Made by a program: the position numbers and the translations under genes. From positions 1 to 20,086 of the IMG/VR virus record IMGVR_UViG_3300012001_000040: a DNA stretch of 20,086 nucleotides; one strand, written 5' to 3'. Origin of the DNA: a virus. Below the pieces are notes generated by a model. That model ran no database searches and was not told where the DNA came from. It saw only the letters and a list, made by a program, of their open reading frames with translations. Below, piece by piece: positions 8,318 through 19,921 of this stretch (the first letter of the stretch is position 1; every line of letters begins with the position of its first letter).

Positions 8318-9439
8318 TTACTTGCTCACCTTCAGGTCTGTAATGCCCTTCTTCAGCCGGGCGAGGAACTTTGCGATAGTGCGGTCGGGGCTGTCTTGGA
8401 TATCCCCGATCACGGGGGTTGCGACGTAGCCCTCGTCGCGTGTGTAGCTGAGCGTTACCTCACGCAGCACGTCTGTGCGGGTAACGAAACCGAGGTCGAT
8501 GGTGACCTGAGCACCGACGACGAGGCCGTCTGTGCCGTACTGGTAGTGCTCTGTCTCTGACAGGCTGACTGCGAACCCGGACTTCGGGGCGCTCTCGTCG
8601 AGCGACTCCTGGGCGCGGGACGCCAGAATGGCCAAGGTGTCCGCGTCACGGGCATCCCTGAACAGTTCAAAGATGTCGTTGTGGGCCACCTCCAGGGCGG
8701 TGTCCCGCACGTCGGTGAAAACCCGGGCGACTCCGTCCCCCGTACCGCCTGCCACAACGTGGGTTGCGATGGGATCCTCGGAAGCCCAGGACCAGCTATC
8801 AACGACCCCTGACGCCTCTGTGAGCGTCCTGGGAAACACTGGTGGTACAAATACGTCACAGACGATTCCTGTGCCCACCTGCTTGAACGTGACGCCGATG
8901 CCGGCCTTTTCAATGGCCGGGAACAGCCGCTCGTAGAGCGGGTGGAACCTCAGGGATACGCCGTCGGGAACGGTGGCTCCGCGGTTGCCGTTGGTGGCGC
9001 AGGTCACGGCCATACCCAGGCGGGTGATCATGTTGGCCATAACGATGTTCTTGACGATCGTCTCTGCGTTGCCGATGTAGACCCCGTACTCGGAGGTCTG
9101 CGCGGTGAGCGCAGCCCCTGGTACCGGGTAGCCGATGATCTGGTGCAGCAGCCGGAAGTCGTCCTTCACGTAGAAGGTCAGGGTGCTCTGGATGGTTGGG
9201 CCCTCCGCTTGGCGAAGGTTGACCTTGCCACTCATGAGGAACTGGCCCCGTAGGGACAGGACTACGCGGGCTCCATCTGCCAGCAGGAAGGGCACCGCGT
9301 GGTGCTCCGTCTCCACAACGATGGTGGCGGTGCCGGTCTGGTTGAACCGGGGTGTGGCAACCAGGGAGATGGGGTCACCGATGAATGCCTTGAAAGCGAA
9401 GCTCTTGTCGTAGACGGCGATCGTGAACGGATTGTCCAT
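8318..9439 (-). CDS. ReqiPepy6 gp37-like tail hub / minor tail protein (373 aa)
   Basis: 373 residues that match the Siphovirus ReqiPepy6 Gp37-like family: FTIAVYDKSFAFKAFIGDP near the N-terminus, then ATPRFNQTGTATIVVETEHH and GQFLMSGKVNLRQ. The middle holds a long alpha/beta part (IVKNIVMANMITRLGMAV). Towards the end come GAQVTIDLGFVTRTDVLREV and a C-terminus of EGYVATPVIGDI, typical of tail-hub (Tal/gp27-like) proteins. These form the ring under the distal tail protein, closing the tube and carrying fibres. Order after tape measure and distal tail protein is the expected one. A single base separates its ATG from the upstream stop (TGATATG). No lysozyme or peptidase domain was seen. Confidence 0.85.
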   Translation of the reverse strand: MDNPFTIAVYDKSFAFKAFIGDPISLVATPRFNQTGTATIVVETEHHAVPFLLADGARVVLSLRGQFLMSGKVNLRQAEGPTIQSTLTFYVKDDFRLLHQIIGYPVPGAALTAQTSEYGVYIGNAETIVKNIVMANMITRLGMAVTCATNGNRGATVPDGVSLRFHPLYERLFPAIEKAGIGVTFKQVGTGIVCDVFVPPVFPRTLTEASGVVDSWSWASEDPIATHVVAGGTGDGVARVFTDVRDTALEVAHNDIFELFRDARDADTLAILASRAQESLDESAPKSGFAVSLSETEHYQYGTDGLVVGAQVTIDLGFVTRTDVLREVTLSYTRDEGYVATPVIGDIQDSPDRTIAKFLARLKKGITDLKVSK

Positions 9440-9440
9440 A

Positions 9441-10370
9441 TCACCACGCCCTGTAGTAGAGCGGCGTGAAGCGTGCTGCTATCTCGCCGGTACCCGACAT
9501 GCTCAGGCTTAGGTTGACCGTCTGCTTTGGAGGCAGAGGGGCGAAGTCGATGGCGCCGAGGGAGCCGGTCATATCGACAGTGAGCTCCCCGCCCACCGGT
9601 CCCTGCATGGCCTGCTGGGCCCGGGGGTCGGTGTCGATCTCAAGCATCTGTCCATCGGCGATGGCGAATGGGATGGTGATGTTCCGGCCGTTGACGCCGA
9701 CAGTGGCCGAGCTGATCGGCCCGTAGATCTGCCAGAGCACGTAGGTCTGGACGTCTCCAGGGTTGTCGATCGCGGCCTCTGCCAGCGTGCCGCCCGGGGA
9801 GATGTAGAACGATGGGGCGCCGGTGCCGCCAAAGAACTGGCTGGACGTACCGGGCGACCACAGGCCGCCCAGGGGATCGCCTTCCCAGTAGGGCTGCTCC
9901 GCGTTGAGGGTAATCCCGTAGTTGGACCAGCCCTCCAGGACCGAGTCATGGTTCATGGAGAAGTCGGTGTCGTCGGTGAAGCGCAACTGCAGCCGGCGCT
10001 GCCGGCCGTCGGGGGTTATTACCACCCAGGTACCGGTCCTGGTCGGGTCCATGGTGCCCCAGAAGGCACTGTCCCTGGCGATCCAGTCAGCACTGCTGGT
10101 GCTGCAGAAGACCTGCAGCGGCCAGAAGACCGGACGGACATCCACGGTTGACCCACGCCACCGGGCGCCCGGCACGGATGCGTGGGCGGCCCGGTGGTGG
10201 ATGATCGGTGGCATGTTCAGTCCGCGGACGCCTGGCATCAGGACCGTACCGTCGGACTCGTCCGTGAGGGTCCATTCGGACCCGTCCCAGCCGATCCATT
10301 TCATGGTGAGGCCGAACCAGTCAACGTTGGTCGGCGCGACGGGCAGGACGGCACCAAAAATGAGGCCCAT
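9441..10370 (-). CDS. Distal tail protein (Dit-like), 309 aa
   Basis: 309 residues with the siphovirus distal tail protein pattern. N-terminal beta domain: MKWIGWDGSEWTLTD, a loop with GVRGLNMPPIIHH, then WRGSTVDVRPVFWPLQVFC. A middle part has GTWVVITPDGRQRRLQLRF and WSNYGITLNAEQPYWEGDP, features common in Dit proteins of actinophages. The C-terminal half is a galectin/jelly-roll-like beta domain (VLWQIYGPISSATVGVNGR, then VNLSLSMSGTGEIAARF and LYYRAW). Dit forms the hexameric hub joining tail tube to tip. It follows the tape measure by 12 bases; its AAAGGAG site overlaps the tape measure stop end. Confidence 0.87.
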   Translation of the reverse strand: MGLIFGAVLPVAPTNVDWFGLTMKWIGWDGSEWTLTDESDGTVLMPGVRGLNMPPIIHHRAAHASVPGARWRGSTVDVRPVFWPLQVFCSTSSADWIARDSAFWGTMDPTRTGTWVVITPDGRQRRLQLRFTDDTDFSMNHDSVLEGWSNYGITLNAEQPYWEGDPLGGLWSPGTSSQFFGGTGAPSFYISPGGTLAEAAIDNPGDVQTYVLWQIYGPISSATVGVNGRNITIPFAIADGQMLEIDTDPRAQQAMQGPVGGELTVDMTGSLGAIDFAPLPPKQTVNLSLSMSGTGEIAARFTPLYYRAW

Positions 10371-10382
10371 TGGTTTGCTCCT

Positions 10383-13300
10383 TTAGTGGATGCCCTCGAG
10401 TGAGAGAGCGTCCCGCTGCAATGCCCTCAGCTTCCTGATGGCGCTTTCGGGATCGACGGTGTTGATGGTTCCGACAGTGACGCTGGTGTTGGTGGTCCGA
10501 GTCGGGACGGTGGATCCGCCAGGAGTGCCGTTGGCAAGGCTGGTTGCCCGGGTGAGCTCGAAGCCGAACTTCTTGGCAACCTCACCGAGGATGGACAGGG
10601 ACCGTGGCCGCTTGGAGGCGGCCAGCGGGATGTATGCCTCGCCGCCGGTCTCGGGTTCCGCAAAAAAGCGGAGGACCGATGATGGCCGGAACAGCCCCGC
10701 GGTGTGGTTCTCGACCCCGCCGTTGGCGAAGGACTTGACCCCTGCCGGGAACTGGCCCTTGAACAGGTCGCTGAACTGCCGGACGGTCTGGAAGAGACCG
10801 CCGTCGGCATTGGTTCCGAAGCGGCCGTTGCCGGATACGTCGCCGTTCAGGTCGGACAGCTGGGAGCGGTCCACGATGGCCTTGAACATTACGGTGCGGT
10901 CATAGGCCGCGGCGTCCAACGCCGCCCTGGCGACCTCGATAGAGGTGCCGTCTGCGACCGCCTTGATGAGGGCCACATAGTCAACGGCAGCGCCGTTGCG
11001 GATCTGGATGACAGCCTCGGCCAGGCCAGGGACGCCATCGGCGACCCTGAGGATGGACGTAAAGTCGCCCGCGACCCACGTCTTGTCGGTCTGGTTGAGC
11101 AGTGCTGTGATCGTCGCCTGGGCAGGCTCCGGCAGGGCGCCTAGCGTAGCGTCCCAGGTGTGGTTGACGTAGTCGGTGGCTGCCTGTACCGGATTTTGGA
11201 TGGCCTCCATGGCCTTGTCCGGGTTGGCGTCGAGATAAGCGACGAAGTCCTTGCCGTCGAAGGTCCCCTTGAGGACCGTCACCAGGTTCTGGGCCCGGGC
11301 GGCTGCCTCCGTGGCGCCGTCGAGGGTGACCTTGAGGACCCAGTCGTGGCCGAAGACGGCGTCCCACTGGCCCTGGACCATATCGGCTGATACGCCTGAG
11401 GCCACGGCAAGGGCGTTGTAGTCGCCCTTGTGGTCGTTGATGAACGCCTGGGCCTTCTGGAAGGCCCCTGTGGCGGTGTCGCCCTGCTTGATGGCGGCAT
11501 CGTAGGCCGCCTTGGCGCCGGCCCAGACGTTATTGACCTCGTCCACGAGTGCCTGGTTGACCTGCAGCACGGCCTTGTTACCGCTGGCGACGTTGAGGAA
11601 CCCGTTTGCGCCAAAGGCCGCATCGCCGAGATTCCGCATCTCTCCGGCGACCGGTATCACCGAGTCCTTGATGTCGTTGAAGCCCTTGACGTAGGCACCC
11701 AGGGTCTCAGCTGCCGCCTGCGCGGCGTTGGTGCCGAGCAGGATCTCGAAGGTCTTGCGCATCGCGTCGATCTTGGACTGGCTGCTGGAGAAGGTGTCCG
11801 ACAGTGTGGCGGACGCCTGGGCCGCGGCACCGAGTGCCTGGGCCGTAAGGCCCGACTGGGCGGCGAGGGCCCTCTGGCTGGTGGCCTGCGCGTCAGTTTG
11901 GATGCCCGCTGCCTTGGATGCTTCGGCGTTGGCCTCGTTGGCAATTTGCATTGCGTCGAGGCTGTCCTTGTTATCGTTGAGCGCGTCGCGCAGCTTCTTG
12001 GCCGCACCGGCCTGATCGGCCATCGCGGCCGTCGGGGCACCGGACGGGGTGTCGCCGGCAAACTGCTGCTGGGCCGAGACGGCCTTCGCGGCCGCCGCCT
12101 GGGCGTCGTCGTAGGTGGAGATGGCCCCGGAGATCTTCTTCTGAAGATCGTCCCAGGCGGACCCGCCCTTGACGATGGCGTCCGTGACTTCCTTGTTGCC
12201 GATCCCGAGCTTCTTCGCGGCATCGTAAGCGCCGGAGGTGACGAGCTTATTGATTGCAACCTTGGTCGTGGCCAAACCCACGGCGCCGGCCACGGCACCT
12301 GCAGCCTTTGCATCCTCCTGGAGGGCGGCTGCGTATTCACTGGCGTAGGGGGCGGCGGCGTGCTGGGAGGTTGCGAGTGCGGTGATGCCGAACGCGATCA
12401 AACCGGTGAGGGCGGCGAGGACAATGCCGACGACCGGTACCATCAGCTGCACCCTGACGGCCGAGATAGCGGCCGTGACGCCGAAGGCTTCGAGGGCTGC
12501 TGCGGCAAGCGGGACGACCGTGCTGGCGAACTTGAACGCCGTGCCGAGCGAGAGGATAAAGCCCGCCATTGCGGCGAGGTTAGGGAGCGGCAGGCTGGTA
12601 ACCATGGTGACCGCCACGGCGGCGAAGGCAGCCATGAACCTGATCACAGGCACGAGGCCGTCGCCGATTTTCTGTATGCCGCTGGCGAAAGCCGGGATCA
12701 CCGTTCCGGCAACGGCCCCGAGGGCCGGGCCGAGGATGTTGACGACGGTCGTGCCGAACTGGATCAGCCCGGGCAGGAAGGGCGCCAGTGCCGACCATGC
12801 CACGGTCAGGACACCGGCTAGCTGCTGGAACAGGTTCTGGAACAACGGCCCCGAGTCGGTGGCCACCTGGCCGAGGACTTGCCCGACCGTCTGGAGGATT
12901 GTCGCAACCGATGCTGCAGCCGGGCGTAGCGCAATGAACATGCTCTGGAGCCCGGTCAGGAAGGCCGTCAGGCCAACGCCCACTAGGGGGCTGGAGAACA
13001 CATCGCCGATATCGGCGACGAGCGCCGCGAGGGCGTGCGCCGAGCCAACGAGGGTATTCTTGACCGTCACTGAGAAGGTGTCCATCGCCGGGCCGAGGGA
13101 GCCGAGGGACTTGAAGAAAATATCCGAGGCCTGTCCCGCGCCCTCGAAGATCGCCTTCATGTTTTTCTGGAAGCGGGGGCCGGAGGTGACCGCGTCGAGC
13201 TTGGCGAGCGCATCGGCGAAGGAATGCAGGGTGAGAGCACCGGCGGCCTGGGCCGCCTGGCCGATGTTGCCCCAGACATTGATCAGGGATACGCCGGCGC

Positions 13301-15080
13301 CGAAGAGGTCTTTCATGCCCTGGACGCCATCAGCTACCCAACGGTGGAGGGTGCCGTCAGCGGCGATCTTCGCGGCCCAGGTGCTGAACTTGGCGGACAT
13401 GTCGTTGAAGGCCCGCCCGATCTCTGGGAAGGCGGTCGAGCCGGCTACCGCAAGCGCGAGGAACCCGTCCATGAAACTCGACAGGCCTGTCTGTGCGACG
13501 TCGAAGCCATGGGACAGGTTGTCAAAGAAGACCTTGACCCCGTCCTGCTTGGTGAGTTTGGTGAAAGAGTCGAGGAGGGAGGAGAAGACACCCCCGAGGG
13601 AACCGGACAGTTGCCCGAGCCCGGACCCCACGGCAGGCAGGGCGGTCTCTACAAAGCGCAGCATACCGTCGCTTGCCTTGTCCCAGAAGTTCGCCGAGAC
13701 CAGCTCGCGGATGCTGGCGAAGACCGGCTTGATCTCTTCGGCGGCCTTCCGGCCCGCCGGAGACAGCCTTTCAAGGGCCTTTGTATCGCCGTTGACGGCG
13801 GCACCGAAGTCCTTGAACACACCCTTCATGACGACCATTACTGCACCGAGGCCGAGGAGCATCGCAGGAGCCATCACGGCGGCCATGCGGACGACCTCAC
13901 CCAGCCCATTGCCGAGGGAGAACGCGTCGCTAGTCAGGGACACGATCGAGGAGGATAGCTGGGAGACCCCGAGCACGGCAGCTGCCACGATGGGCAGGTT
14001 ACGGTCGAGGGTGCCGATGGACTCAGCGAACTCCTGGGCCCACCTGCTGGCGGCCCTCAGGCCGGTGAGCTTGGCGGCGGCCAGGACGAGGCTGGAATCG
14101 TTCATCTTGGCAAAGATGTTGACCGTCTGGTTCTTGGTCAGGAGCTTGATCGCGGCCAGGGTGACAAGGAAGTCCGACTGGGCGATCTCGGGCTTGATCT
14201 TGAGCTTGTTCTGCTCGGCTGCCTTGATCTTGGCATCGACGATGGCCAGCTGCTCACGCAGCGCGGCCTCGTCAAGCGTTGTCTCGATGTGGATCTTGTG
14301 GTCGATATGGAGAAGCTCTTCAATCCTGGCCTTAGCGACCCGGAGCCCGGCCTCGTTGTCGTCGTAGTCGATCCGGACGGTCAGGGTGCCCAGCTCTTCC
14401 TCAAGCCTGGCCTTGGCGAATGCCAGTTCCAGGGGGTTGAGGTTGACGCTGATCTTGACGGCGCCGACCTTGGCCAGTTCTGCGTCGATCTCCGCGATTG
14501 CCTTTTCCAGGCCGGCACGGTCCTGGTTGTAGGAGATATCGACCTTCATTACGGGCTTTGATGCCTCCAGGAGGGCCTTGTACTTGGCCTCCTCCCTGGA
14601 CAGTGATGCCTCGTCGGTCTTGAACTCGATGGTCTTCTCAAGCTTCTGCCGGCGGATGGCGTCGATCTTCGCCAGGACCTCCCTATAGCCCACTTCGTCC
14701 GGGGAGAAGGTGATCTCGACATTGGCGTCCTTGGCCATAGCGGCCAGATCGGCCTGCGCCTTGGCGATGCTGGCGGCGTCCTTCAGGTCAACCGGGATCT
14801 CGATCTTCTTCTTGAGCAGGGCCTCGAGCTGCTTCATCCCGGCGCGGACAGAGTCGTAGTCCAGACCGACGTTGAGCGTTATCTTGGTCCGCTCGGCTTC
14901 CTTCTTGGCCTTCTCGACGTCCACCTTGACCGCGGTGGTGTCGGCCTCGATCTTGATCTTGACAGTGGCTTCCACGCCAGCGAGCTCTTTGTTGATCGCG
15001 CGCTGTGCATCACCACGGAATCCGCGGGCATCCGGGCGCACCTTGATGGCAACGGCACCGACAAGTTTGAGGTCAGCCAA
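10383..15080 (-). CDS. Tape measure protein (1565 aa)
   Basis: At 1565 residues this is by far the longest gene, placed between the tail chaperones and the distal tail protein, as expected for the tape measure that sets tail length and is pushed out at DNA entry. At about 1.5 A per residue in helix it predicts a tail of roughly 230 nm, an inference from the general rule. Residues 40-346 are tandem beta-alpha repeats (separate entry). Hydrophobic stretches lie near 362-380, 399-418 and further on (VIRFMAAFAAVAVTMVTSL; LMVPVVGIVLAALTGLIAFG), as usual for pore-forming parts. The rest is Ala-rich helix. Near the C-terminus are GGLFQTVRQFSDL and GLFRPSSVLRFFAEPETGG, a known tape-measure end motif. 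The ATG overlaps the chaperone stop by 8 bases. No frame breaks. Confidence 0.95.
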   Translation of the reverse strand: MADLKLVGAVAIKVRPDARGFRGDAQRAINKELAGVEATVKIKIEADTTAVKVDVEKAKKEAERTKITLNVGLDYDSVRAGMKQLEALLKKKIEIPVDLKDAASIAKAQADLAAMAKDANVEITFSPDEVGYREVLAKIDAIRRQKLEKTIEFKTDEASLSREEAKYKALLEASKPVMKVDISYNQDRAGLEKAIAEIDAELAKVGAVKISVNLNPLELAFAKARLEEELGTLTVRIDYDDNEAGLRVAKARIEELLHIDHKIHIETTLDEAALREQLAIVDAKIKAAEQNKLKIKPEIAQSDFLVTLAAIKLLTKNQTVNIFAKMNDSSLVLAAAKLTGLRAASRWAQEFAESIGTLDRNLPIVAAAVLGVSQLSSSIVSLTSDAFSLGNGLGEVVRMAAVMAPAMLLGLGAVMVVMKGVFKDFGAAVNGDTKALERLSPAGRKAAEEIKPVFASIRELVSANFWDKASDGMLRFVETALPAVGSGLGQLSGSLGGVFSSLLDSFTKLTKQDGVKVFFDNLSHGFDVAQTGLSSFMDGFLALAVAGSTAFPEIGRAFNDMSAKFSTWAAKIAADGTLHRWVADGVQGMKDLFGAGVSLINVWGNIGQAAQAAGALTLHSFADALAKLDAVTSGPRFQKNMKAIFEGAGQASDIFFKSLGSLGPAMDTFSVTVKNTLVGSAHALAALVADIGDVFSSPLVGVGLTAFLTGLQSMFIALRPAAASVATILQTVGQVLGQVATDSGPLFQNLFQQLAGVLTVAWSALAPFLPGLIQFGTTVVNILGPALGAVAGTVIPAFASGIQKIGDGLVPVIRFMAAFAAVAVTMVTSLPLPNLAAMAGFILSLGTAFKFASTVVPLAAAALEAFGVTAAISAVRVQLMVPVVGIVLAALTGLIAFGITALATSQHAAAPYASEYAAALQEDAKAAGAVAGAVGLATTKVAINKLVTSGAYDAAKKLGIGNKEVTDAIVKGGSAWDDLQKKISGAISTYDDAQAAAAKAVSAQQQFAGDTPSGAPTAAMADQAGAAKKLRDALNDNKDSLDAMQIANEANAEASKAAGIQTDAQATSQRALAAQSGLTAQALGAAAQASATLSDTFSSSQSKIDAMRKTFEILLGTNAAQAAAETLGAYVKGFNDIKDSVIPVAGEMRNLGDAAFGANGFLNVASGNKAVLQVNQALVDEVNNVWAGAKAAYDAAIKQGDTATGAFQKAQAFINDHKGDYNALAVASGVSADMVQGQWDAVFGHDWVLKVTLDGATEAAARAQNLVTVLKGTFDGKDFVAYLDANPDKAMEAIQNPVQAATDYVNHTWDATLGALPEPAQATITALLNQTDKTWVAGDFTSILRVADGVPGLAEAVIQIRNGAAVDYVALIKAVADGTSIEVARAALDAAAYDRTVMFKAIVDRSQLSDLNGDVSGNGRFGTNADGGLFQTVRQFSDLFKGQFPAGVKSFANGGVENHTAGLFRPSSVLRFFAEPETGGEAYIPLAASKRPRSLSILGEVAKKFGFELTRATSLANGTPGGSTVPTRTTNTSVTVGTINTVDPESAIRKLRALQRDALSLEGIH
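14043..14963 (-). repeat. About 11 degenerate beta-alpha repeats (~28 aa each) in tape measure N-terminus
   Basis: Within residues 40-346 I can lay out eleven units, each with an alternating hydrophobic strand, usually an Asp or Asn turn, then an amphipathic helix. Unit starts are roughly residues 40, 67, 93, 121, 151, 178, 208, 233, 263, 293 and 320. Examples of strands: VKIKIEADTTA, ITLNVGLDYDS, IEIPVDLKDAA, MKVDISYNQDR, LTVRIDYDDNE, IHIETTLDEAA. Units vary from 25 to 30 residues and share pattern more than identity. The boundaries were set by eye. Confidence 0.7.
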
Positions 15081-15899
15081 GGGGGAATCCGTTCTTTCTG
15101 AAGAAGTCGAAGTTGTCCTCGTACTCCTGTTCGGCGGGCTTTATAGCCCCTTCAGTCCAGGCGGACGGACCTATCTGCTCGAACTTCGGTGGCCCGTCAG
15201 GGCCCCACGTTCCGGAGATAGCGGTGTTGAGATTGATTGCGTTGATTTCCATAGCGACCAGCCGGCGATCCAGGGTCCAGACACGGTGGTCCATGATCGC
15301 TTCCATGCGGGGATCGGGCTTGGGTTTGTCGGTTACTTCGGGAGGGTTCTCTTCGCGATCAACAGTGACGGCGGCGTAATAGCGGGATCCCTCGGGGAGG
15401 TTCCGGAGCATGGCGAAGATGATGGCGATAGAGGAAAAGACCTCGCCAGCAATGAAGCTGACGAGGTCAAGTCCCCAGAACTCCTTGAGATCAAGGTAGA
15501 TCTCCTCGCCGTACTCGTCGATCAGCTCTCCGAGGGCGAAGCTTCCCCCGGGCTGGTCACTTCGGAGTACTGCTCGAAGAGGTAAAGCCAAATGCCCAGG
15601 TCTTCCAGGCCAGCCCACTTCAGAAGCGCGGCGTGGTCCCCCCTGGTGCGCTCGGCCGCCTTCAGGGCGTCCGACATGACGCTGATCATCAGCTGGGCCT
15701 GGTCTACGTCATGCCCCTCCGGAAGGTCTTCCGTGCGCTTCTTCAGGTCCATCGCGTCATTTATAGCGCGACGCTTGACCTTCGGGAGCCGGAGTACGGG
15801 GCGGAAACCGAGGATCCTTCCGTCTTCGGTTTCAACTTCAAAATCGGGGTACTTGGCGGCCGCGCCTTTGCGCAGGTCGTCCAGTGAAAGTGCGGACAT
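15073..15899 (-). CDS. Tail assembly chaperone, long -1 frameshift product (gpGT-like, ~275 aa)
   Basis: Translation starts at ATG 15899, runs 118 codons in the short-chaperone frame, and slips back one base at CCCGGGG (15552-15546). It then continues as [18 protein letters not shown] to the stop at 15075-15073, giving about 275 residues. The second frame (open from 15618) lacks a convincing start of its own: its first 20 or so residues overlap the short chaperone and are Arg/Pro-rich. The extension has a hydrophobic helix ([20 protein letters not shown]) and a charged end. Lambda G/GT proteins work this way: both forms coat the tape measure and recruit tail tube subunits. Gene place, just upstream of the tape measure, and 8-base overlap agree. 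The shift site is read from sequence and is not tested. Confidence 0.85.
15522..15899 (-). CDS. Tail assembly chaperone, short form (gpG-like, 125 aa)
   Basis: 125 residues starting [19 protein letters not shown], with a strong GAAGGAG site upstream. The N-terminus is a small beta part ([19 protein letters not shown]), followed by charged helices ([16 protein letters not shown], then [20 protein letters not shown] and [20 protein letters not shown]), a layout shared by actinophage tail chaperones. It ends [18 protein letters not shown] when no frameshift occurs. It is expected in excess over the long form and binds the tape measure during tail assembly without staying in the virion. It lies between the major tail protein and the tape measure, its normal place. 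Confidence 0.88.
15546..15552 (-). promoter_or_regulatory. -1 ribosomal slippery heptamer CCCGGGG
   Basis: On the - strand the bases read C CCG GGG in the chaperone frame (codon GGG is 15548-15546), an exact X XXY YYZ heptamer. Slipping back one base re-pairs CCG with CCC and GGG with GGG, and joins the frame ending at 15522 to the one ending at 15073. The overlap of the two frames (15522-15618) contains no equally good site; GGGGGAA right beside it is weaker in this phase. Confidence 0.8.
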
Positions 15900-15943
15900 T
15901 TACTGACTCCTTCATGGAAAGCGGACGGTCTAAAGGGGCCCAC

Positions 15944-15968
15944 GGGGCCGGGGTCCGCACCCGGCCCC
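15944..15968 (-). terminator. Strong GC hairpin after the major tail gene
   Basis: GGGGCCGGG (15944-15952) and CCCGGCCCC (15960-15968) make a perfect 9-bp GC stem with a 7-base loop. It lies 16 bases after the repaired major tail protein stop and about 45 bases before the chaperone ATG. On the - strand it is not followed by a good U tract (only CCCCTTTAG further on), so it may be a partial terminator, a pause site or a 3' mRNA-protecting stem that lowers chaperone expression relative to tail tube. Confidence 0.6.
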
Positions 15969-15983
15969 ACGGGGGCTTGTTTA

Positions 15984-16758
15984 CTACGGAGCTGCGATAG
16001 CCACGGGAGGGGGCGGACGTGTAGCCCGAGCCTCCGTTGGTGACGTTGATCGCAGTCACCACGCCGTCGGTAACCACTGCAGTTGCAGCGGCGAGTGTGC
16101 CGCCACCTCCGGAGAAGGTAACTGCAGGAGTCGCGGTGTAGCCCGAACCGCCGGAAACGACCGTGACCGAGGAGACGGCGTTGGCCGTGACAGTCGCGGT
16201 AGCGGTAGCGGTCGAGAGGATGACAGCAGGGCTGATCCACTCGAAGGGCCAGTCGTTGGAGCCGTAGTTGAGCGGGGTGACCTTCAGCGACAGCTGGGCC
16301 AGGTTTTCGGTGTCCGCAACGGTCAGGTCGTCCGCGCGAAAGATCGAGACCCTGGGGGCGTAGATCCCGGCCGTGGACTGTCCGTCATAAAAGACGACCA
16401 TCCAGGCGACTTCTGTCGGGACAGGGTTGGAAGGGACGCGGACGTTGCCGGCGACGATAGCGGCATTGGAACCGTAGTAGAGCAGCAGGCCAGGGTGATC
16501 GAACTGGAGCAGCTTCATAACGAACGCTTCAGTACGGGCTGCGATGGTCTGGCGCAGGGTCTTGTTCTGCAGCGACCGCAGGGTGGTGGTGTCGCCACCT
16601 TCCGAGCTGCCGGCAAGAATGTCCTGAATGGAGGTGTGGCCAACTTCGGTCCACGGACTTGCGGGATTTCGCAGGTCGGTGGCGATTGCAGTGCCAACAG
16701 GCGCCGTGTAAAAGTGGCCGGTGCCAACCTTCAGCACGGCAGTGTTGTCAATTGCCAT
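15984..16758 (-). CDS. Major tail (tube) protein with C-terminal GSGYT domain; frame broken by one extra base near the end
   Basis: The major tail protein forms the tail tube. ATG 16758 has AAGGAG upstream and starts [19 protein letters not shown]. Middle: [40 protein letters not shown] and [19 protein letters not shown], typical of actinophage tail tube proteins. The last 62 residues of the repaired protein form a repeated GSGYT domain also present on the capsid protein. As written, the frame passes a run of five Cs (- strand, 16013-16009), misses a tandem stop (TAG TAA, 15986-15981) and runs to 15838, across a hairpin and into the chaperone gene, giving Arg/Pro-rich nonsense. One C fewer gives [12 protein letters not shown] then stop, parallel to the capsid end (YTSDPTVTVAAP), and 257 residues. 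+1 slippage at CCC-U is the alternative. Confidence 0.88.
15987..16173 (-). repeat. C-terminal GSGYT domain of the major tail protein (paralogue of 18551-18736)
   Basis: Here the units read [19 protein letters not shown] and [19 protein letters not shown]. The alignment with the capsid copy is gap-free over all 62 residues only if one of the five Cs at 16009-16013 is dropped, which supports the frame repair. Confidence 0.82.
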
Positions 16759-18547: not shown

Positions 18548-19921
18548 CTACGGGGCAGCGACGGTAACGGTCGGGTCGGAGGTGTATCCGGAGCCCGCGG
18601 CGGTAACTGCGATAGAGGTGACCTGGCCGTTGAGGATGGTCGCAACAGCAGTTGCGAGAGTGCCACCGCCACCGGAGATGGTGACCGCCGGGGTGGAGGT
18701 GTAGCCGAAGCCCTGAGCGGTAACCGTGACCGAACCAAGCGTGTTGCCGGAGCGGACAGCCAGGGCCGTAGCAGCTGCCTTGGAGCCGGGGTAGTTGCCA
18801 CCGAGCGGGAAGGGTTCGCCAACGACCGAGGGACCGGTGATCGGCTGGAGGTTGTAGGCCTTGGCGAGGAAGGAGGCTGGGTCGCCGCCGGGGGTTGTGG
18901 TGGATCCGTCGCCGGGCTTCTTCTCGATGGCCGAGGTGGTAGCCTTCAGGGCCAGCTTCACGCCACGGACGAAGTACCTGTCGGAGGAGACGATCTCACG
19001 GGAAGATCCGTCGTAGACGGCCAGGAGATCCTTCACGTAGGAGTAGCCGGCGTAGCAGTCAAAGACCGAGCGGTCTGTCAGGTACGCGGTGTCGTAGTCC
19101 ATGAGCCAGCGAAGGGCCCAGCCACCGGCGGAAGCCTGTGCGCCGAAGGGCACGGACTGCGGGATGGACGGCACGCCGGTGAAGACCAGGAAGCCGGAGC
19201 CCGCGTACATGTAGGCCTCGTCGGCGGCGATGTGCGTCGAGGAGACGAACTTCACGCCGGCGATGGTGCCGAGAGTGGCCGTGGTCAGGGCGGAGTCGCC
19301 CGTGGCCTGGTCCTTCAGGAAGCGGTTGGACTTGATGATCTGCTCTTCAAAGTCCACGCCGCACACGCAGTACAGGGTCTCGCTCGGGGTCCTCATGAGG
19401 CGGATGGCCTTTTTGGCCTCCACGACGGCGTTGTAGAAGACTTCCTGGTTGGCGGCCTTGGCGTCGGCCAGCCCGGTCGTGTCGTTCTTGACCAGAACTA
19501 CACGCTCGTAGGGCGCCTTGAGGATCTCGTTGAGCACACCGTGCTCGAGGTAGGATGCGATCGCGATGGACTGGGCGGAGATGAGGTCGCCCCAGCCGTC
19601 CTGGAAGTCCCAGTCGCGCTGTTCGTCCGTCATCTTGATGGCAGAATATGGACGATCAGCGGAGATAGTCAGGGTCACGACTGTCTCCTGATAGGAGTCC
19701 GTGATGATGGGCTGGCTGCGGTCGTTGCGCGCCGTGTAGGTGCGGACGGGGACGGTGCCACGCACTCGCTGGGAGATTGTGTCGCCGGCGGACGCGAAGA
19801 AGGTCTTCATGTCGTTGCGCTTGGTGACGGTATTGGCAATTGACAATTCGTCACGAAGGGCAGACACAGCCGCCTGGACAAGCACTGCTGGCTTGACCCT
19901 GAGGCTCGGTGTGTAAGTCAT
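18548..19921 (-). CDS. Major capsid protein with C-terminal GSGYT domain (457 aa)
   Basis: 457 residues; HK97-fold coat protein, probably the P22 gp5-like branch common in actinophages. N-terminus: SLRVKPAVLVQAAVSALRDE, then a beta part (ISQRVRGTVPVRTYTARND and YQETVVTLTISADRPYSAIK), a helix-rich spine (AQSIAIASYLEHGVLNEILK), and FVSSTHIAADEAYMYAGSGF. Residues about 340-390 form a Gly/Pro/Thr linker, after which the last 62 residues form a repeated GSGYT domain ending VAAP, matched on the major tail protein. The RBS AAAGGG precedes the ATG, and an intrinsic terminator lies just upstream, so the gene may have its own transcript start or depend on read-through. No delta domain or scaffold fusion is visible at the N-terminus. 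Confidence 0.92.
   Translation of the reverse strand: MTYTPSLRVKPAVLVQAAVSALRDELSIANTVTKRNDMKTFFASAGDTISQRVRGTVPVRTYTARNDRSQPIITDSYQETVVTLTISADRPYSAIKMTDEQRDWDFQDGWGDLISAQSIAIASYLEHGVLNEILKAPYERVVLVKNDTTGLADAKAANQEVFYNAVVEAKKAIRLMRTPSETLYCVCGVDFEEQIIKSNRFLKDQATGDSALTTATLGTIAGVKFVSSTHIAADEAYMYAGSGFLVFTGVPSIPQSVPFGAQASAGGWALRWLMDYDTAYLTDRSVFDCYAGYSYVKDLLAVYDGSSREIVSSDRYFVRGVKLALKATTSAIEKKPGDGSTTTPGGDPASFLAKAYNLQPITGPSVVGEPFPLGGNYPGSKAAATALAVRSGNTLGSVTVTAQGFGYTSTPAVTISGGGGTLATAVATILNGQVTSIAVTAAGSGYTSDPTVTVAAP
18551..18736 (-). repeat. C-terminal GSGYT domain of the capsid protein (paralogue of 15987-16173)
   Basis: The last 62 residues of the capsid protein match the last 62 of the repaired major tail protein at 40 of 62 positions without a gap, counted by eye. 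Each copy is an internal duplication: SVTVTAQGFGYTSTPAVTI and SIAVTAAGSGYTSDPTVTV here. The middle SGGGGTLA is identical in both proteins. Confidence 0.85.

Follow-up and report, generated by a model that had tools for sequence, protein, structure and literature searches.

The window analyzed here, the whole stretch of DNA of 20,086 nucleotides (20 kb), is an IMG/VR fragment that comes from a tailed soil phage, an uncultured virus known from this contig alone. Its minus strand encodes, in order, the major capsid protein, neck and terminator proteins, the major tail protein, two overlapping tail assembly chaperone frames, the tape measure protein (TMP), a Dit-like protein, and a Gp37-like protein (Table 1). 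Identification of the TMP as that of a siphophage is based upon this gene order, upon its being the longest open reading frame downstream of the major tail protein, upon PHROG matches, and upon the presence of overlapping chaperone frames upstream and Dit/minor tail genes downstream. The TMP start codon is TTG and lies inside the 3' end of the chaperone T frame; the start LKLVGAVAIKVRPD is kept across the relatives found among viral contigs. A slippery-like CCCGGGGGAAGC near position 15552 (15545-15560 of the window, minus strand) is located at the overlap of the chaperone frames and fits the usual G/GT frameshift.

Additional features were noted in and around the TMP gene. The major tail protein (15838-16758, minus strand, residues ~183-251) and the major capsid protein (18548-19921, minus strand, residues ~380-457) have a similar C-terminal GGSGYTxxPxVTxSGGGG decoration domain, the two domains being matched by identical PHROG families, and on sequence grounds the surfaces of head and tail probably display one common domain. 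In the major tail protein the domain pattern stops and an odd basic tail continues, overlapping the chaperone frame (15838-16010, minus strand); no clean continuation of the domain was found in another frame, and its abrupt end may reflect either an error in the sequence or truncation of a repeat. Toward the C-terminus of the TMP (residues ~1451-1509; 10554-10730, minus strand), the FANGGVENHTAG...AEPETGGEAYIPLAASKR region shows ~50-64% identity in otherwise unrelated TMPs, this peptide being common to Microbacterium, Corynebacterium, Gordonia, and Rhodococcus phages; it may perhaps serve as a conserved tip-binding plug. A tRNA-Arg called by ARAGORN within the TMP coding sequence (11442-11531, minus strand) is probably a false positive, and an open frame of 661 aa that runs antisense to the TMP (12382-14367, plus strand) most likely results from GC-rich codon usage.

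Table 1. Positions in the window of the TMP, its N-terminal units, and the neighboring tail genes.
Feature	Position	Strand	TMP residues	Evidence and remarks
Gp37-like minor tail protein	8318-9439	-		gene order, profile matches
Dit-like protein	9441-10370	-		gene order, profile matches
Tape measure protein (TMP)	10383-15080	-		1565 aa; phrog_305 TMP E=4.9e-44
TMP body	10383-14042	-		1219 aa after residue 346
Unit 12/cap (TVNIFAKMNDSSLVLAAAKL)	14043-14129	-	318-346	cap profile 50.1 bits at residue 319
Unit 11, divergent	14130-14204	-	293-317	seed HMM 2.6 bits; negative in leave-one-out
Unit 10, even type	14205-14291	-	264-292	window-free HMM, leave-one-out, typing profiles
Unit 9, odd type	14292-14375	-	236-263	window-free HMM, leave-one-out, typing profiles
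Unit 8, even type	14376-14456	-	209-235	window-free HMM, leave-one-out, typing profiles
Unit 7, odd type	14457-14540	-	181-208	window-free HMM, leave-one-out, typing profiles
Unit 6, even type	14541-14633	-	150-180	window-free HMM, leave-one-out, typing profiles
Unit 5, odd type	14634-14717	-	122-149	window-free HMM, leave-one-out, typing profiles
Unit 4, even type	14718-14801	-	94-121	window-free HMM, leave-one-out, typing profiles
Unit 3, odd type	14802-14879	-	68-93	window-free HMM, leave-one-out, typing profiles
Unit 2	14880-14960	-	41-67	weak but positive in window-free HMM and leave-one-out
Unit 1 (VAIKVRPD-ARGFRGDAQRAINKEL)	14961-15050	-	11-40	window-free HMM, leave-one-out; Bxb1 TMP residues 1-57 E=1.9e-4
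Chaperone T-like frame (frameshift extension)	15073-15618	-		phrog_393 E=7.9e-15; ends within TMP start
Chaperone G-like frame	15522-15899	-		phrog_330 E=5.6e-16, PF17388 E=2.4e-9

An Array of Beta-Alpha Units Forms the N-Terminus of the TMP

The N-terminus of the TMP consists of 12 beta-alpha units of 25-31 residues each, with a mean length of 27.9. The initial annotation had proposed about eleven such units of ~28 residues at residues 40-346, and eleven are indeed found at residues 41-346 (14960-14043, minus strand), with one additional unit ahead of them. This first unit is the N-terminal unit most widely common to actinobacteriophage TMPs. The last two units (293-346) are divergent, and the cap unit is conserved, closing the array in relatives whose unit numbers run from 7 to 20.

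The internal repeat signal was significant, with HMM scores far above those of shuffles. A seed HMM built from the units of BroPlease and phiScoe56 gave 10 in-register matches within TMP residues 12-316 and one other match, with a sub-zero score, in the remaining 1249 residues. When the HMM was trained on relatives, with the window left out, 10 positive units were obtained, for a total of 80.5 bits over residues 1-345; the same window-free HMM gave a mean of 0.45 and a maximum of 5.5 on 300 shuffles, and 0-0.5 on the rest of the TMP. In a leave-one-out test, each unit position was dropped from training in turn so that orthology could not carry the signal. Ten of the 11 units still scored above zero, and the total of 92.3 bits compares with 6.9 ± 3.1 (maximum 13.9) for 40 shuffles. 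No comparable units were found elsewhere in the TMP when the rest of the protein was scored by the unit HMMs. A Fourier test on the window alone gave a weak peak at a period of 27.5 that was equaled by 143 of 2000 shuffles and is not significant by itself, the signal being weak because unit lengths range from 25 to 31. TRF found no long array in the window DNA, as expected because the repeats are old and diverged. In relatives, the best copies share 58-70% DNA identity, at lags of 339-357 nt, and therefore no recent duplication was caught.

The VxVxxD-like strand motif described in the initial annotation is real, as judged from the column pattern over 490 units. Strand columns 2, 4, and 6 are occupied by VILMFYW residues in 97, 86, and 58% of units, columns 1, 3, 5, and 7 almost never are, and column 7 is Asp in 336 of 457 units. 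Helix columns 11, 14, 18, and 22 are likewise hydrophobic. The unit consensus is thus a short one-faced strand, (K/T)-phi-x-phi-x-phi-D, followed by an S/G/D helix cap and then an amphipathic helix. The array also differs from the body in composition: its charged fraction is 0.35 compared to 0.16 for the body, its Gly+Pro content is one third of the body's, and it contains 1.4 Phe+Trp per 100 aa compared to 6.1. Positive and negative charges in the array nearly cancel (net charge -5).

Units Are Repeated in Pairs

We built odd and even profiles from eight relatives having 12 units each and then applied them to arrays outside that set. Odd and even units alternated at 103 of the 108 adjacent junctions that could be confidently typed (hand-counted in the window and ten close relatives). 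Alternation was less clean in the more distant BroPlease, and phiScoe56 did not follow the odd/even typing. The true elementary repeat is a two-unit pair of ~56 residues. In long arrays the strongest self-similarity occurred at lags of 114-119 residues, equivalent to four units; the array often expands by two pairs (~115 aa). Arrays with the cap type of the window have 10, 12, 14, 16, 18, or 20 units; in the lineage whose cap is preceded by an additional unit, the numbers are 13, 17, and 19. All differences in count within a lineage are even, a parity that is suggestive given that some units were interpolated and that the events are perhaps not independent.

TMP Length Varies with the Number of Units

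Several dozen relatives were identified among viral contigs by alignment-based scans; a single-protein query of the viral contigs with the TMP gave no relatives. Unit number, which the initial annotation had pointed to as a potential determinant of tail length, ranges from 7 to 20 across relatives, and TMP length shifts with it one for one. Among the 7 complete TMPs in the subclade of the window, array length ranges over 315-556 aa, as against 1225-1250 aa for the remainder of the protein, and the regression is TMP length = 1.01 × array + 1236 (r = 0.997). Body length has a standard deviation of about 8 aa in this subclade, and the array varies 1.8-fold without compensation. A second subclade gave a slope of 1.03 with bodies of 1294-1317 aa. 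Since the slopes are close to 1 on bodies of near-constant length, the variation in TMP length is variation of the array.

The named relatives are Streptomyces phages of the Arquatrovirinae, with arrays of 13 units in Hautrevirus, 11 or 7 in Camvirus, and 7 in Likavirus and Sentinelvirus. Individual examples are phiHau3 (Hautrevirus, 13 units), Lika (Likavirus, 7), and, among Camviruses, phiJoe, Saftant, and Endor1 (11) and Kaine (7). The dependence of TMP length on the array recurs here: Hautrevirus combines a body of 930 aa with an array of 343 aa, and Likavirus a body of 933 aa with an array of 174 aa. The Camvirus arrays of 11 or 7 units are found on bodies 60-69% identical. When phiScoe56 was compared with Kaine and Vanseggelen, the DNA similarity of the 7-unit phages to the 11-unit TMP began at nt 925-966, near the array end; from such alignments, the N-terminal array of Camvirus TMPs appears as a module that is exchanged.

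The TMP of the window belongs among actinobacteriophage TMPs with an N-terminal array, in that its profile score exceeds that of shuffles, its register is ~28 aa, and the array starts at the N-terminus and ends with the cap. Rhodococcus phage PhailMary, Gordonia phage Marietta, and Streptomyces phage Attoomi were also positive, with shorter or looser arrays, and the cap profile was not found in their TMPs. Among mycobacteriophage TMP N-termini, the array profile matched that of Bxb1 (E = 1.9e-4) and, weakly, that of Douge (E = 0.049). Of 396 genomes searched within a single phylum, to which a Streptomyces genome belongs, only the one already known to bear an array matched strongly; four others matched at threshold only.

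Predicted Structure of the Array

An AF2 model of residues 66-291, based upon 44 rows, had a mean pLDDT of 77 and a pTM of 0.39 and contained eight helices (TMP residues 75-89, 102-118, 129-147, 157-174, 188-205, 216-232, 243-261, and 271-290). The inter-helix segments of ~10 residues were extended and locally confident, and in this monomer they were unpaired by DSSP. A model of 420 residues with 13 rows had a pLDDT of 42 and the same secondary structure. We infer that, in a protein known as a trimer from the related phage Douge (PMC13033339), such unpaired segments would be compatible with strand pairing between TMP chains. Mutual information between unit i and units i+1 to i+4 gave inter-unit z ≤ 2.3, with no strand-strand signal.

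Foldseek searches of PDB and BFVD with the array model gave no significant match, and a Pfam search with the window TMP gave none. None of the families in Pfam, NCBIfam, PDB, or BFVD accounts for the repeat. In particular, no link to leucine-rich repeats (LRR) was obtained from Pfam, the window TMP giving no match and the matches listed for 44 array segments including no LRR family. Weak profile matches were obtained with HMA domains of the copper ATPase CopA (E 7.5e-5, with a further local PDB profile hit at 0.0012) and with the de novo protein M7 (0.012). Membership with CopA HMA and M7 was rejected, the resemblance being a local beta-alpha-beta one; the HMA domains differ in fold order. A ferredoxin-like HMA domain was rejected as well: the units are strictly beta-alpha, not beta-alpha-beta-beta-alpha-beta, and the Pfam HMA match stayed below cut-off (E 0.087; HMA_PCA1, 13 bits against 24.5).

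A Modular Ruler Segment as a Candidate Role for the Array

It has long been asked how the tape measure counts the rings of the tail, and most direct tests have come from lambda and TP901-1. The TMPs of the relatives differ in length almost only through the count of one defined repeat, and this natural series of 10, 12, 14, 16, 18, and 20 units on a near-constant body makes the relationship of ring number to unit number directly measurable.

In the mycobacteriophage Douge, a TMP trimer runs through the tube with its C-terminus in the baseplate, the ring rise is 41.8 Å, and the N-terminal side of the TMP is near the connector, where it is unresolved in the structure (PMC13033339). In TP901-1, the tail shortens or lengthens proportionally when an N-terminal region of the TMP is deleted or duplicated, and the fit places only ~127 aa in total outside the ruler (PMC5099701). 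Based on the topology of Douge and the scaling in TP901-1, the array is therefore most likely the head-proximal part of the ruler, with unit pairs as the quantum of change. We favor this reading tentatively, at somewhat short of even confidence: the array would be a modular, head-proximal ruler segment of a trimeric TMP within the tube, and gain or loss of pairs would resize the ruler with the body untouched. The N-terminal 346 residues form a tandem beta-alpha array built of ~56-residue pairs. We infer that in the assembled tail the array would run in the TMP trimer inside the tube lumen, that its strands and helices would pack between the three TMP copies and not within one chain, and that tail length would follow unit number. 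Pairs, often two at a time (~115 aa), could be gained or lost through tandem duplication, deletion, or module exchange, lengthening or shortening the ruler and leaving the membrane-active and tip-binding body unaltered.

In numerical terms, one unit might correspond to approximately one tube ring (27.9 aa × 1.5 Å = 41.8 Å) and a pair to two (8.4 nm). We regard the equality of this product with the ring rise of Douge as no more than a coincidence that merits a test, since 1.5 Å per residue is not a given for a strand-helix unit; a fully extended unit would span about 60 Å. A digital ruler, in which each unit of the trimer would register with one ring and, units acting in pairs, the tail would change by two or four rings with the body constant, is a stricter proposal that we regard as unlikely.

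Published tail lengths from electron microscopy bear upon the ruler reading. The tail of phiJoe (11 units, TMP of 1464 aa) measures 199.5 ± 12 nm; the tails of three phages whose TMP, at 1370 aa, matches the 7-unit class in length measure 223.4 (Kamino), 228.7 (Vanseggelen), and 200.4 nm (Verabelle). The predicted increase is thus absent among these four Camviruses with 7 or 11 units, whose capsids range from 46.5 to 63 nm between laboratories, so that the scales are not comparable. If anything, the published lengths do not favor a ruler role. Also against such a role, TP901-1 needs the first 154 residues of its TMP, so that an N-terminal stretch can be non-ruler, and where the array varies on a body that stays constant, the body alone could be the ruler.

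The chief rival explanation is that the array is a folded module near the neck, situated at the terminator, stopper, or lower portal, where it would act as a plug or touch the DNA end, with the constant body alone setting tail length. The near-invariance of the body against the uncompensated variation of the array, the proximity of the TMP N-terminal side to the connector in related phages, and a phiJoe tail no longer than those of 7-unit Camviruses all fit such a module. However, variation from 7 to 20 units is large for a component that has to fit a fixed ring, no compact fold was predicted (pTM 0.39), the nearly neutral charge of the array gives no sign of DNA binding, and most of the TMP of TP901-1 belongs to the ruler. 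We consider a neck module rather unlikely.

The initial annotation had also raised docking of chaperones. The array would then be a scaffold for G/GT, binding one per unit or pair, and would be needed in assembly but be neither ruler nor neck part. The chaperone genes immediately precede the TMP gene, both in the window and in those annotated relatives that were inspected, a repeated surface with a high charged fraction suits repeated binding, and a partner could complete the strands that are unpaired in the modeled monomer. Published work, however, ties chaperone binding to hydrophobic regions of the TMP and the array is highly charged, and unit number varies widely among phages with an ordinary G/GT arrangement; a docking scaffold is thus improbable. 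Least supported is a self-contained alpha/beta solenoid within one TMP chain (an LRR-like horseshoe or a ferredoxin-like chain), likewise suggested at first, which we consider very improbable: ribonuclease-inhibitor LRRs resemble the array in their period of 28 and paired A/B types, hydrophobic residues line a single face of both strand and helix, and CopA HMA and M7 gave weak matches, but the strands were unpaired in both AF2 models with no intramolecular sheet, Foldseek found no match in PDB or BFVD, the listed Pfam matches included no LRR and an HMA match only below cut-off, and neighboring units showed no strand-strand covariation.

Comparison with Known Systems

The 28-residue repeat has no Pfam or NCBIfam model, and no description of it was found in the open-licence literature. 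This repeat, for which there is neither a family model nor a matched fold, spans Streptomyces, Rhodococcus, and Gordonia phages, with short forms in two mycobacteriophages. A structural parallel to the ruler segment proposed here may be provided by alpha/beta coiled coils and beta-interrupted trimeric fibres, in which short strands alternate with short amphipathic helices in a trimer, as proposed for the array, and with which the unpaired extended segments of the AF2 model are compatible; their known beta-layers are shorter than the array strands, and no sequence link between them and the array was found.

The other close counterparts are phage TMPs. Those of the Arquatrovirinae (Hautrevirus, Camvirus, Likavirus, and Sentinelvirus) resemble that of the window in array, cap, and gene order, but have 7-13 units and are only ~25% identical to it over the whole TMP. 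In the N-termini of actinobacteriophage TMPs such as those of Bxb1 (PDB 9d93) and Douge (8zdo), the initial one or two units are homologous (VGRLSIKVxPDxxGF..., IKADTAAM...), and a further strand-helix unit comes after them; from alignments by eye they contain only ~2-3 units, compared to 10-20 in the window and its close relatives.

Tandem TMP repeats of 11 and 11-11-18 residues marked by Trp/Phe are found in Staphylococcus and lactococcal phages (Belcaid 2011, PMC3271669; Mahony 2016, PMC5099701). These share with the array a tandem arrangement, a number that varies by duplication and loss, and an expected effect upon tail length. The array differs in its period of 28 in pairs of ~56, its strand-helix units, its lack of an aromatic marker, and its restriction to the extreme N-terminus; with units of 25-31 residues (mean 27.9) and a low Phe+Trp content, it does not belong to the 11/18-residue class. 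Variable-number TMP repeats as such were already known, and it is in length, composition, position, and pair structure that the repeat described here is new.
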